From NCBI RefSeq assembly GCF_000025865.1, contig NC_014002.1, forward strand, positions 496,001-560,000: a DNA stretch of 64,000 bases, in the 5' to 3' direction. A program made the translations under genes and the position numbers. Below are positions 764 through 23,118 of the stretch, piece after piece. Below the pieces are notes generated by a model. That model saw only the letters and a program-made list of their open reading frames with translations. It did not search any database and was not told the origin of the DNA. This DNA comes from Methanohalophilus mahii DSM 5219 (GTDB lineage: Archaea > Halobacteriota > Methanosarcinia > Methanosarcinales > Methanosarcinaceae). How positions within the stretch are numbered: position 1 is the first letter of the stretch; the number at the start of each line of letters is the position of its first letter.

Positions 764-3541
764 TTATTCCCCTTTTGCCTTGTCCCTCAGGAACTTGTGC
801 AGAATTCCACCATTTTTGCAGTAGTCCACCTCTATATCGGAATTGAGATTTACAGTTACATTGAATGTGACTTCATTTCCATCCGGGTGGCGGGCTACAA
901 CCTCGAGTTCTCCGCCGGGTTTCATTTCCGGGATGCCCTTGATGGTGTAGGTTTCATCACCTTCAAGTCCCAGGCTTTCTTTATTTTCACCTTCCCTGAA
1001 CTGCAGGGGGATTACTCCCATTCCCACAAGATTACTGCGGTGAATTCTTTCATAGGACTGTGCGATCACGGCTTTTACACCGAGAAGTTGTGTGCCCTTG
1101 GCCGCCCAGTCACGGGAGCTGCCTGTTCCATATTCCTTGCCTGCGATTACCACCAGTGGAATGTTATTTTCCATGTATTTCATGGCAGCATCATATATTG
1201 GCATCTCTTCTGCCTCAGGGAGGTACACTGTCCATGAACCTTCCTTGCCAGGCACAAGTTTGTTTTTCAGGCGCACGTTACCGAAGGTTCCACGCATCAT
1301 TACTTCGTGGTTGCCCCTTCTGGATCCATAAGAATTGAATTCATTTTCCGCTACACCGTGTTCCATCAGGTACCTGCCTGCAGGATAGTCAGCAGGAATC
1401 GAGCCTGCCGGAGATATATGGTCGGTGGTAATGCTGTCATCCACAACTACAAGTGCTCTTGCATCCTTTATATCTTCCATATTTTCGATATCAACAGGGA
1501 AGTCCTGGAAAAATGGAGGTTCCTGTATGTAGGTAGATTCGTTGTTCCAGTCGTACAGTAATCCTTCCGGAGCGTCAAGTTCCTGCCACCGTTCAGTTCC
1601 CTGGAATACATTGGCATATTCTTTTTCAAACATTTCGGGTTGTACATATTCACCACAATACTGTTCTATCTCACCGTTTGCAGGCCAGATATCCTTCAGG
1701 TAGACCGGTTCACCGTTCGGGTCGCATGCAATAGGTTCTTTTGTGAGGTCAATATCCACCGTGCCTGCCAGAGCAAAGGCAACAACGAGCATAGGGGATG
1801 CTAGGTAATTGGCTTTTACATGGGGACTGATCCTGCCTTCGAAATTCCTGTTTCCGCTGAGTACCGATGCAACGGTCAGGTCACGGTCCTCAATTTCCTT
1901 TACTACCGCTTCATGCAGGGGTCCACTGTTCCCGATACATGTGAGACAGCCGTAGCCCACAAGATGGAATCCCAGGGCTTCCAAGTAAGGTACAAGGCCG
2001 GCTGCTTCCAGATAGTCCATTACTGCCTTTGATCCGGGTCCAAGACTGGTTTTCACGAATGGTTTGACCTTAAGTCCTCTTTCAACTGCCTTTTTCGCAA
2101 CAAGTCCGGCACCGATAAGAACTGACGGATTTGAGGTATTGGTACAGGATGTGATGGAAGCAATAGTGACGGAACCGTGGTTTAAGTCTACCTCTTCTCC
2201 TTCACATTTGATCTTCATGATCCCGCTGTGGTCGGGATGTGTTTTTTCCACAACGTTATAACCACCCTCTTCAAGCCAGCGACTGTAATCCGGATCATTC
2301 TCGAAATCTTCACTTCCCTTTTCCAGAGAGAATACATCTTTCATTGTCTTGTGGAAAGCTGCGGACATATCACTTAGCACAATCCGGTCCTGTGGCCTTT
2401 TCGGACCTGCAAGGGAGGGCTGTACAGTACCCATGTCAAGTCCAAGAGATGAGGTATATTCCGGAACCGGTGCATCACTTTCTGCAAACAGGCCCTGTTC
2501 CTTGCAATATTGGCGAACCATATTCACATGTTCTTCACTGCGGCCGGTCATGCGCATGTAATCCAGTGTAACTTCGTCAACAGGGCAAAATCCCATTGTT
2601 GCGCCGTATTCAGGACCCATGTTGGCAAGGATTGCCCTGTCAGGCAGGGAAAGTTTCCTGTAACCGGGACCATAGAATTCCACGAATTTACCTACAACAC
2701 CGTGTTCCCTGAGCATCTGGGTTACTGTGAGTACAAGATCTGTGGCTGTGATCCCATCTTTCAGTTCTCCTCTCAATTCAAAACCCACAACTTCAGGAAT
2801 TGGCATATAGTAAGGTTGTCCAAGCATAACTGCTTCAGCCTCAATACCACCAACGCCCCATCCCAGGACACCCAGGCCATTGATCATTGTTGTATGGGAA
2901 TCGGTTCCTACAAGAGTATCGGGATAGGCGACAGTTTCGCCGTTTTCTTCCCGCAGATGTACTACATTTGCCAGGTGTTCAAGGTTTACCTGGTGGATTA
3001 TGCCGCTTCCCGGAGGTACTACGTTGAAATTGTCAAAGGCATTCTGAGCCCAATGCAGCAGTTCATAACGTTCTCCGTTTCTCTGGAACTCATGTTTCTC
3101 ATTACAGTTTCTTGCATAGGAAGTGCCATAGCAATCGACCTGTACTGAGTGATCTATAATAAGGTCTGCAGGAATAACGGGGTTAATTTCCTCGGGATTT
3201 CCGCCAAGTCTTTTCATTGCAGACCTGATTGCGGCAATATCAACAACTGCGGGCACGCCTGTAAAATCCTGCAGGATTACCCTTGAAGGGATGTATGGGA
3301 CATCCGTTTTTGGTATATTGCCGGGTTTCCAGCCTGCAAGGTTTTTTACGTCCTCTTCAGTTACAACTTTCCCATCTGTATTCCTTACTAGATTTTCCAG
3401 TAATACCCGGATAGAATAGGGAAGGGAAGAAATTTTGCAAAGGCCATTTTCCTCAAGTTTATCCAGACGGTATATAGTACTCTTCTTACCCATGGTGTCA
3501 AGAGTATCTCTTGCTTTAAAAGAAACTGAATTATTATCCAT
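764..3541 (-). CDS. acnA: Aconitate hydratase (AcnA type)
   Basis: This enzyme converts citrate to isocitrate through cis-aconitate and carries a labile [4Fe-4S] cluster. The 925-residue protein has the cluster cysteines in SITSCTNTSNP and in YGCLTCIGNSGPL, plus the C-terminal swivelling domain with DSITTDHISPAGSIPADYPAGRY, so it is a full-length AcnA/IRP1-type aconitase. I chose ATG at 3541 because AGGTG lies eight bases upstream; a GTG at 3550 is also in frame but would sit inside that ribosome site. It follows the citrate synthase gene by 26 bases on the same strand, so the two probably form an operon making isocitrate toward 2-oxoglutarate and glutamate. No isocitrate dehydrogenase gene is in the window. 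Confidence 0.96.
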   Translation of the reverse strand: MDNNSVSFKARDTLDTMGKKSTIYRLDKLEENGLCKISSLPYSIRVLLENLVRNTDGKVVTEEDVKNLAGWKPGNIPKTDVPYIPSRVILQDFTGVPAVVDIAAIRSAMKRLGGNPEEINPVIPADLIIDHSVQVDCYGTSYARNCNEKHEFQRNGERYELLHWAQNAFDNFNVVPPGSGIIHQVNLEHLANVVHLREENGETVAYPDTLVGTDSHTTMINGLGVLGWGVGGIEAEAVMLGQPYYMPIPEVVGFELRGELKDGITATDLVLTVTQMLREHGVVGKFVEFYGPGYRKLSLPDRAILANMGPEYGATMGFCPVDEVTLDYMRMTGRSEEHVNMVRQYCKEQGLFAESDAPVPEYTSSLGLDMGTVQPSLAGPKRPQDRIVLSDMSAAFHKTMKDVFSLEKGSEDFENDPDYSRWLEEGGYNVVEKTHPDHSGIMKIKCEGEEVDLNHGSVTIASITSCTNTSNPSVLIGAGLVAKKAVERGLKVKPFVKTSLGPGSKAVMDYLEAAGLVPYLEALGFHLVGYGCLTCIGNSGPLHEAVVKEIEDRDLTVASVLSGNRNFEGRISPHVKANYLASPMLVVAFALAGTVDIDLTKEPIACDPNGEPVYLKDIWPANGEIEQYCGEYVQPEMFEKEYANVFQGTERWQELDAPEGLLYDWNNESTYIQEPPFFQDFPVDIENMEDIKDARALVVVDDSITTDHISPAGSIPADYPAGRYLMEHGVAENEFNSYGSRRGNHEVMMRGTFGNVRLKNKLVPGKEGSWTVYLPEAEEMPIYDAAMKYMENNIPLVVIAGKEYGTGSSRDWAAKGTQLLGVKAVIAQSYERIHRSNLVGMGVIPLQFREGENKESLGLEGDETYTIKGIPEMKPGGELEVVARHPDGNEVTFNVTVNLNSDIEVDYCKNGGILHKFLRDKAKGE

Positions 3542-3567
3542 AGTTGGCACCTGTAAATATAAATTCG

Positions 3568-4668
3568 TTATACGAATTTTGCACGTGGTCTTATCAACCT
3601 GTTATCTGAATATTGTTCGAGACAATGTGCAATCCAGCCCGATATCCTTCCAGTGGCAAAAACTGCCGTTGCAAGTTTAGGGGGGATGTCAAGATATTTG
3701 TAGATGACACCGGAATAAAAATCGACATTCGGATATATATGTTTACCCCTATTTTGCACATATTCTTCATATGCGACCCTTTCTATATTCTCGGCAATCT
3801 CAAACCACTTCATGTCGTTCTTCTCCATTGCAATCTCACGTGCAAGCTGCTTGTAAACTCTGGCTCTGGGATCATATGTTTTGTATACACAGTGTCCAAA
3901 TCCCATCAATTTCTCGTGTTTTTCGATTTTGTCCAGAACAAAACTTTGCGCATCTTTTGGAGAGTCAATGTCGTCAAACATATTCATTACTGCCATTCTT
4001 GCTCCACCATGCAGGGGTCCTTTGAGGGTACACAGTCCTCCAATGATGGCTGAATGCAGGTCAGAAAGCGTTGATGTGATGGTTCTTGCCGCAAAGGTTG
4101 AAGGGTTTAATTCATGGTCGGCACTCAGGATGAAATCAGATTCAATGATTCGGGCTTCAAGGTCTGTGGGCCGGGTTCCCCTGAGCATGTAGAAAAAATT
4201 TGCCCCGCGGGACATTTCAAAATCTGGCTCAATTACTTTCAGGCCTCTCTTAAGCCTTGAAAACGATGTGACAATGGTGGGGAATCTTGCTATCATACGC
4301 ATTCTTTTTCTGATATTAGCCTGTGTGTTATTTGTGTTCATATCCGGGTCACAATAGGACATGAAAGATGTAACTGTCCTCAGGGCATCCATTGCTTCTA
4401 TATTGAAATTACAATATCCAAGAACCTCAATCAGATCAATCCCGATACTGCGCTCATCTTTGAGAGTTCTGGAATAATATTCAAGTTCCTAATCTTCAGG
4501 AATTTTTCCATGAATCAGTAAATAGGATACTTCATCATAAGTCAAATTGGCAAGTTTATCTACATCATAGCCACGATATTGTAATATTCCCCTTTCCCCG
4601 TCTATGAAAGTTATACTTGATTCCAAAGCAACTATATTTTCAAGCCCCTTTTCAACTTCTCTTTTCAT
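3568..4668 (-). CDS. gltA: Citrate synthase with an in-frame amber codon at position 60
   Basis: The gene would condense oxaloacetate and acetyl-CoA to citrate. Read straight through, the frame from ATG 4668 to TAA 3568 encodes 366 residues, the usual archaeal citrate synthase length, interrupted only by TAG at 4491-4489 (codon 60). Family sequence lies on both sides: before it the N-terminal IDGERGILQYRGYD and HGKIPED segments, after it the DLIEVLGYCNF helix, the GGLCTLKGPLHGGA catalytic histidine region and GFGHCVYKTYDPRA with the second histidine. There is no shift of frame and no other stop. A TTG codon precedes the ATG. GAGGGG lies ten bases upstream of the ATG. Because this organism decodes UAG as pyrrolysine in mtbB, readthrough is plausible; a nonsense-inactivated gene is the alternative. 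Confidence 0.88.
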
Positions 4669-4933: not shown

Positions 4934-5572
4934 TCAGTTTTTCTCATCCTCGAATTCAATGTGCCAGTGACTGCCATCGCAGAATGGTTTATTTTTGGAG
5001 CCACCGCATCTGCACAGGCAATAATGGTCCTGGGTTTCAGGCTTAGAACCATCCGGACCCTCAAGTTCAATATCTCCCACAACATTATAGGAACGGTCCT
5101 TCCCGACAAATACTTCTGAATCATGCGGATAATCTTTGTGCAATTGTCCATCCATGGTGTAACTCAATGCTCCGGACGGGCACATCCTGATAATTCTTGC
5201 GATTTCTTCCGGATCAGCGCCATCAGGGTCGATCCAGGGTTCAATGCCCATCCTGAAAACCGAAGGCAAATTGTCGGTACAGTGGCCCATATGGGAACAT
5301 ACTCCGCGGTTGTCATGGATTGTGATTGCTTTTCCTTTGTAAGTATCCATTTTGTCAGGAACGCGATCTTCTTTCTTATCCCCTGAAAAACCGTTCTTCA
5401 TATGAGTACCATCACAAAAAGGCTTGTTTCCGGATCCTCCACATCTGCACATTACAATGGTGGGCATTGTTTCAATGAATACTCCTTTTGAATTACGCAG
5501 GGTATTGAGATTGCTTACAATGTATGGCCCGTCTTTTGATACTTTTATGATGGTTTTGTCTTCTTTATCCAT
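4934..5572 (-). CDS. CDGSH-ferredoxin-CDGSH iron-sulfur protein
   Basis: The 212-residue protein has two CDGSH-type Fe-S sites, CRCGGSGNKPFCDGTH at about residues 42-57 and CRCGGSKNKPFCDGSH near the C terminus (about 187-202). Each supplies the C-x-C...C-x3-H ligand set of a 2Fe-2S cluster. Between them is a Fer4_19-like segment with GVCSHMGHC and IIRMCPSGAL, suggesting a further Fe-S site. The family is known in archaea and bacteria but its reaction is not; a redox or cluster-transfer role is inference. It is cytosolic, with no signal peptide. It lies 73 bases upstream of nothing obviously related; the CoA-fold gene precedes it on the same strand. Confidence 0.88.
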   Translation of the reverse strand: MDKEDKTIIKVSKDGPYIVSNLNTLRNSKGVFIETMPTIVMCRCGGSGNKPFCDGTHMKNGFSGDKKEDRVPDKMDTYKGKAITIHDNRGVCSHMGHCTDNLPSVFRMGIEPWIDPDGADPEEIARIIRMCPSGALSYTMDGQLHKDYPHDSEVFVGKDRSYNVVGDIELEGPDGSKPETQDHYCLCRCGGSKNKPFCDGSHWHIEFEDEKN

Positions 5573-21714: not shown

Positions 21715-23118
21715 ATGGCAAATGAATATTTCTTAAGAATGGGAGACGGTGAAAGGGTCTCCATGACCAGGGAGCAGATCATTGCAGACCTTCAGGAAGG
21801 TAGTGCAGATGCCGCAGACCTTGGTAACATTCCTGAACTTTCCGGGGATGAACTTGACAAGCTCGCAGATATCATTATGAATCCCAACCGTATAGTCAGT
21901 GTCGAACCAGGTATGGAAATCCCGGTAACTCACGACATTGGTACCCTCAGGATCGACGGTGATCAGGGTAACAGCGGAGTAGGTATTCCTTCCAGCCGTC
22001 TTACTGGCTGTATGATGCACGAGAGAGGTTTCGGTGCAGACACAATGGAACTGGGTCACATCGACTACAGTTTCAAACCAGTCAAACCGGTTATTGCCCA
22101 GGAACAGCAGGCAATGGAAGTCTGCCAGGAAAACATGACCATCCCCCTTCTCTACGGTGCAATGCCAAATCTTGGTCTCTATTATACACCAGATGGTCCA
22201 TTCAAAAACCCTGGTGACCTCATGAAGGCTTTCAAGATCAACGAAGCCCGTGAATCCATCGAGCATGCCGGTGACCATGCAACCCGTGACATGACCTGGA
22301 TCATGCAGCACCTGCAGAAAGTAGGTTGTGACGGTGTCAACTTCGATACCATCGGTGCAGCTGGAGATGGTGATTTTTATGCTTCCCTTTATTCTATCAA
22401 GGCGCTCAGGGAAGAATTCCCTGATATCTACATCGAAGCAGGTATGGCCGGAGAATGTACCCTAGGTATGCACGGCGAACTTGAGTTCGAAGGTAATGTT
22501 CTTGCAGGTCTGTGGCCACATGAACAGGCACCACTTGCAGAAAAGGCTGGTGCAAACGTGTTTGGTCCGGTCTGTAACACCAACACAAGCAAGTCCTCCG
22601 CATGGAATCTTGCCCGTTCAGTAACCTTCACCAAAGCTGCAGTTGAAGCTTCAAACATCCCCTGTCATGTTGACATGGGTATGGGTGTTGGTGGTATCCC
22701 AATGTTCGAGACTCCACCAATCGATGCAGTAACCCGTGCCAGCAAGGCAATGGTCGAGATTGCCGGTGTCGATGGTATATAGATAGGAGTTGGCGACCCC
22801 ATAGGTATGCCAATCTCACATATCATGGCATCCGGTCTTACAGGAATGCGTGCAGCCGGTGACCTTGTTGCCAGGATGCAGTTCTCCGAGAACATGCGCA
22901 TAAATGAAGCCAAGGACTATGTCGCCAAGAAACTCGGTGTTGAATCACTTGACCTGGGAGACGAATATGTCATGAGGGAAATCCGTGAAGACCTTGACAT
23001 TGGTGTACTTACATCCGTACCAGGATGTGCCAAGGGTATCGCATCCAAGATGAATATTGAGAAACTTCTCGATATTGAAATCAACTGCTGCGATAAATTC
23101 AGGGAAATCACAGGCTAA
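21715..23118 (+). CDS. mtbB: Dimethylamine:corrinoid methyltransferase MtbB (pyrrolysine protein)
   Basis: MtbB moves a methyl group from dimethylamine to the corrinoid of MtbC, the entry step of methanogenesis from dimethylamine. The whole frame 21715-23118 encodes 467 residues, the known family length, with TAG at 22780-22782 as codon 356. The sequence on both sides is typical: [13 protein letters not shown] before it, [10 protein letters not shown] and the C-terminal [18 protein letters not shown] after it. In Methanosarcina this amber codon is translated as the 22nd amino acid pyrrolysine, which sits in the active site. The gene follows mtbC by 11 bases with AAGGTGAT before ATG. pyl genes are not in this window. 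Confidence 0.98.

Follow-up and report, generated by a model that had tools for sequence, protein, structure and literature searches.

A likely pyrrolysine codon in a probably dispensable Si-citrate synthase gene of Methanohalophilus mahii

The Si-citrate synthase gene of Methanohalophilus mahii (Mmah_0479) is interrupted by a single in-frame amber codon, which we read, with a probability of about 0.6, as a near-neutral change from a sense codon to a pyrrolysine codon in a dispensable gene, citrate being supplied by a candidate Re-citrate synthase. The gene lies in a 64,000-nucleotide stretch of the M. mahii DSM 5219 genome (NC_014002.1, positions 496,001 to 560,000 of the forward strand), here called the window, to which coordinates refer unless a genome or locus is named. 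Both the amber codon and the pyrrolysine hypothesis have been known since 2010: the M. mahii genome paper names Mmah_0479, places the amber codon at position 177 of its coding sequence, labels the gene a pseudogene and proposes pyrrolysine at this codon on the grounds that 2-oxoglutarate is indispensable (Spring et al., 2010; PMC3017947). An earlier inspection of the DNA, referred to below as the sequence-only reading, reached the same idea independently.

Mmah_0479 occupies positions 4668 to 3568 on the reverse strand and encodes a Si-citrate synthase of 366 residues that ends in TAA and contains one internal stop, a TAG at codon 60 (4491-4489). Translation of the frame and a PF00285 match from end to end (406 bits, cut-off 27, E 6.5e-122, covering all 357 profile positions, with the TAG read through inside the match) bear out the earlier description of a full-length citrate synthase frame broken at this codon only. 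Citrate synthase sequence is recognizable both in codons 1-59 (4492-4668) and in codons 61-366 with the terminal TAA (3568-4488), and no further stop (TAA or TGA) or frameshift was found in the 366 codons. Alignment to solved citrate synthases places the catalytic motifs LHGG, GFGH, PNVDFYS, DPR and RPRA in the protein, and no other PF00285 gene is present in the complete 2,012,424-bp M. mahii genome.

The accompanying statement that the gene bears no other lesion holds for the reading frame but not for the protein, which carries replacements private to M. mahii at four nearly invariant family sites (H154R, L159F, R260C and P310H). Of the family sequences, 28/28 have His154 (codon at 4207-4209) and 28/28 have Arg260 (codon at 3889-3891). 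The five best solved citrate synthases have both residues too, and the M. mahii protein departs from all of these at both positions; R260C falls inside the GFGHRVYK motif and H154R outside the motifs.

Codon 60 itself sits at a hypervariable position, as had been supposed. In 29 Methanosarcinaceae relatives this column is occupied by N, E, Q, T, G, R, A, K or F, and the closely related genome G034, which has an intact gene, carries GAA (Glu). TAG occurs in M. mahii alone among the 30 aligned sequences, so that the UAG position is not conserved in homologues. A bulky residue could plausibly be tolerated here, with the variability of the column as the evidence for a surface position. A single-sequence structure prediction of the read-through protein gave a pLDDT of 38 and was set aside.

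A TATA-like stretch (4698-4691) and a Shine-Dalgarno-like GAGGGGG (4683-4677), read from the sequence, precede the start codon on the reverse strand; similar elements occur at a similar position in G034, and they may act as the expression signals of Mmah_0479. An intact and constrained aconitase gene, acnA (Mmah_0478; 764-3550, reverse strand), lies 17-27 nt downstream and is probably part of the same operon, and a gene for a CDGSH-type protein, named by eye from its motifs, lies upstream (4934-5572, reverse strand).

That the organism can decode UAG, as the sequence-only reading assumed, is supported by a pyrrolysyl-tRNA synthetase (PylS) and a tRNA-Pyl with a CTA anticodon in its genome, and by mtbB (21715-23118, forward strand), whose known in-frame TAG (22780-22782) provides an example of pyrrolysine decoding within the window. 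PylS was found in 8/8 Methanohalophilus genomes searched. In a 442-kb sample of the M. mahii genome, at most 4 of 258 open reading frames of at least 200 codons end in TAG, a count that includes mtbB, itself read through; for frames of at least 100 codons the figure is 13/396, and these counts include several shadow frames or read-through genes. By inspection, the apparent true TAG terminators are those of pylB, a Toprim-like gene and an ABC ATPase. TAG in M. mahii therefore hardly functions as a terminator. In the pyrrolysine cluster beside tRNA-Pyl, the pylB frame (L071:8386-9447, reverse strand) that ends in TAG stays open for 39 more codons to a TAA. Because PylS and tRNA-Pyl are present and TAG is nearly unused as a terminator, the UAG of Mmah_0479, flanked by homologous sequence on both sides, is likely to be read through as pyrrolysine.

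Single in-frame TAGs are also found in further genes that are otherwise intact. In M. mahii, a thioredoxin-fold gene of about 680 codons outside the window (G000:569910-571955; L170) has one at G000:570411, where G034 has CAG. An MFS-type transporter frame (L080:11431-12297, reverse strand) has a single TAG followed by 91 more open codons. A histidine kinase gene of G032 contains an in-frame TAG and is otherwise intact. Two aconitase genes are affected as well: that of G031 at codon 377 (L068, G031:C11:14987-17770), where the closest relatives have Gln, and that of G037 at codon 150 (L070, G037:C10:27986-30757). Both are otherwise full length and conserved, and the G031 gene is still constrained (nonsynonymous/synonymous differences of 0.27-0.32). 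Counting internal stops automatically in 4 x 200 kb of sequence gave a noisy result, most TAA and TGA hits being over-extended 5' ends or shadow frames; clear mid-gene stops identified by eye in the same sequence amounted to three TAG and one TAA, too few for a statistical test.

The aconitase TAGs support the idea of UAG as a drifting sense codon. We tentatively suggest, at somewhat less than even odds, that UAG is a general low-frequency pyrrolysine sense codon in Methanohalophilus that moves through housekeeping genes, having arrived in the citrate synthase of M. mahii and independently in the aconitases of G031 and G037. Enzymes of the oxidative branch would then contain pyrrolysine in three species with no catalytic need for it. 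Archaea that read all TAG codons as pyrrolysine were reportedly described in 2025.

The fate of the citrate synthase gene in sister species suggests that it can be dispensed with. Between the CDGSH-type gene and aconitase, where M. mahii has citrate synthase, G031, G032, G035 and G036 retain only a 3' remnant of about 50-80 codons. It measures about 79 codons in G035 and in G036 and carries frameshifts in G031 and in G032. In the more distant G037, one piece of 12 codons and another of 32 (about 44 in all) are left. Apart from the single TAGs of G031 and G037, AcnA is full length and unbroken in all five of these genomes, the four close sisters showing 95-97% identity and G037 79%. The CDGSH-type gene forms the left flank of the deletion, and its breakpoints are common to G035, G036 and G031. 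A weakly supported tree places the intact G034 within the group of deletion carriers, so the gene is likely to have been lost repeatedly, or its alleles to have been exchanged between species.

Two further features of this locus were observed. The last ~50-79 citrate synthase codons have been kept upstream of aconitase in four sisters (L032-L035), and such retained remnants may hold expression signals for aconitase. The CDGSH-type gene adjoining the deleted citrate synthase in G035 has a mid-gene TAA (G035:C2:655491; L206), aligned with GAA in M. mahii.

Constraint on the citrate synthase of the M. mahii/G034 pair is relaxed. A codon model assigned omega of 0.238 to these two branches against 0.0395 for the background (2dlnL 41.5); in the same branch test, AcnA (0.057 against 0.053) and the gene described below as HMGL-like (0.057 against 0.037) showed no significant change. 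Omega was also raised for the CDGSH-type neighbour (0.100 against a poorly estimated background of 0.007), so part of such rises may be a short-branch effect. Pairwise fits nonetheless gave citrate synthase the highest omega (0.24) among nine genes compared, and the citrate synthase genes of M. mahii and G034 differ by 41 nonsynonymous and 41 synonymous codon differences, compared with 34 and 157 in their acnA genes (Fisher P 1e-7).

Saturation of the outgroups prevents separate omegas from being identified for the two branches (fits ranged from 0.16 to 12), and only the pooled value is used here. Changes derived in M. mahii and in G034 number 19 and 11, an excess that is not significant. G034, which lacks the TAG, probably shares the relaxed constraint, and the relaxation is then not specific to the TAG-bearing gene. 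An omega well below 1 implies some selection on the gene along most of the branch. The sequence-only reading had looked to relatives for TAG alternating with lysine or other sense codons and for low dN/dS as signs of read-through. Sense codons, Lys among them, do occupy column 60 and the M. mahii frame has no frameshift or second stop, but relatives have deleted the gene, some remnants are frameshifted and omega stands at 0.24 over a background of 0.04. Taken together, the checks named in that reading tell largely against the strong form of its proposal.

A candidate for the replacement enzyme is encoded outside the window by an HMGL-like gene of 450 codons (G000:604789-606138; L042:1420-2772), which is convergent with the isocitrate dehydrogenase gene at a distance of 40 bp. 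The protein combines an HMGL-like domain (PF00682, 123 bits) with a homocitrate-synthase-type domain (PF22617, 51 bits). Over the shared domain, three other paralogues are much better matches to the isopropylmalate, citramalate and homocitrate synthase models, which leaves the HMGL-like gene free for another role. The protein reached the cut-off of no curated equivalog model: its best NCBIfam score was 244 against a cut-off of 485, and the matches included no Re-citrate synthase model. No solved Re-citrate synthase structure was found, and a scan of the genome collection for the family yielded archaeal relatives almost exclusively and did not bring up a characterized Re-citrate synthase.

The distribution of the HMGL-like gene complements that of Si-citrate synthase. 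Seventeen of the 86 good family genomes have no Si-citrate synthase match, and all 17 encode the HMGL-like protein (69-82% identity), as do three good genomes with citrate synthase remnants only. The gene is present in all five remnant genomes described above, and the five closest sisters share it at 95-97% identity. Among the good genomes only G011 lacks it; there, a divergent citrate synthase gene directly adjoins that of isocitrate dehydrogenase. In most family genomes that have both, and also in ANME and Methanocellales contigs, the HMGL-like gene adjoins isocitrate dehydrogenase; in the genera g7 and g10, some genomes are without this isocitrate dehydrogenase. Domains, neighbourhood and distribution together point to a probable Re-citrate synthase as the simplest role for the protein.

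These observations are most readily accommodated by a model in which a genuine and probably recent substitution, confined to M. mahii, created the TAG in a variable column of the Si-citrate synthase gene. With tRNA-Pyl charged and TAG hardly serving as a terminator, codon 60 would most likely be decoded as pyrrolysine in at least some rounds of translation, and a full-length protein with pyrrolysine at residue 60 would be produced and would probably fold. The HMGL-like protein beside isocitrate dehydrogenase would provide citrate for 2-oxoglutarate and make the Si gene dispensable. Selection on the Si enzyme has relaxed in the genus, its gene has been deleted repeatedly, and Mmah_0479 may itself be on its way out.

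The closest competitor, which we consider unlikely, is that Mmah_0479 is a young pseudogene, as it is annotated: function would already be lost in M. mahii, with UAG mostly terminating or the product inactive, and the TAG would be the first visible lesion on the way to deletion. The deletions and frameshifted remnants of the sisters, the omega of 0.24 compared with 0.06 for AcnA and the four private changes at invariant sites are all in keeping with this, but the open 366 codons, the intact catalytic motifs, an omega that is still only 0.24 and the organism's means of reading UAG speak against it. An artefact, either a sequencing error or a culture variant at codon 60, is very improbable. A single assembly of the species was compared, but the authors of the finished genome remarked on the codon (PMC3017947), and similar single TAGs recur in other genes and species where clear mid-gene TAA or TGA codons are rarer.

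The view shared by the sequence-only reading and Spring et al. (2010), that UAG60 is pyrrolysine and the resulting enzyme serves as the citrate synthase of the cell, tying 2-oxoglutarate to pyrrolysine supply, seems to us less probable still than a pseudogene. It draws on Mmah_0479 being the sole PF00285 gene of the genome, on the retention of aconitase and isocitrate dehydrogenase, on the pyrrolysine machinery and on the reported growth of M. mahii with methanol as sole carbon source (PMC3017947). Against it stand sisters that live without the gene and keep aconitase, a candidate Re-citrate synthase that is universal apart from G011 and strongly constrained, the relaxed constraint on Mmah_0479 and a TAG that is not conserved. 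Given sisters without the gene and a candidate Re-citrate synthase, the argument from indispensability fails, and a dependence of anabolism on pyrrolysine through Mmah_0479 is unlikely. Nor does it follow that the cell would lack the enzyme activity if UAG were untranslated. An intact second citrate synthase gene, with the present copy untranscribed, had been named as evidence that would count against the proposal; a second PF00285 gene is absent, and a highly constrained candidate of the Re type sits beside isocitrate dehydrogenase.

The favoured reading, a near-neutral pyrrolysine codon in a dispensable gene, has several consequences. The published inference, that M. mahii probably translates the amber codon because it would otherwise have no route to 2-oxoglutarate, is unsafe. 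A probable Re-citrate synthase beside isocitrate dehydrogenase would correct the annotation of carbon entry into glutamate synthesis in Methanosarcinaceae. A constrained aconitase and a released citrate synthase in one operon offer a natural test of the spread of UAG as a pyrrolysine sense codon, and single TAGs wandering through the housekeeping genes of the genus, aconitase included, are the more interesting lead.

Comparison with known systems places Mmah_0479 among several precedents. Spring et al. (2010) described the same gene, the same codon and the same pyrrolysine hypothesis (PMC3017947); the difference lies in the indispensability argument, which loses its force in view of the deletions in sister species and of a candidate Re-citrate synthase. 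The HMGL-like gene, with its HMGL-like and homocitrate-synthase-type architecture, resembles the Re-citrate synthases of Clostridium kluyveri (Li et al., 2007, as cited in PMC3087415) and Dehalococcoides (Marco-Urrea et al., 2011, as cited in PMC3971608); homocitrate and isopropylmalate synthases are relatives of the known enzyme. The methylamine methyltransferases MtmB, MtbB and MttB of pyrrolysine-decoding methanogens likewise have full-length genes with one in-frame UAG. Their pyrrolysine position is conserved and catalytic, whereas that of Mmah_0479 is variable and its TAG private to one species. In this respect Mmah_0479 is more like the neutrally arisen in-frame UAG genes of pyrrolysine-decoding archaea (PMC3639795), which carry a species-private single UAG absent from homologues; it differs from them in that its host gene is also seen being lost in the genus.
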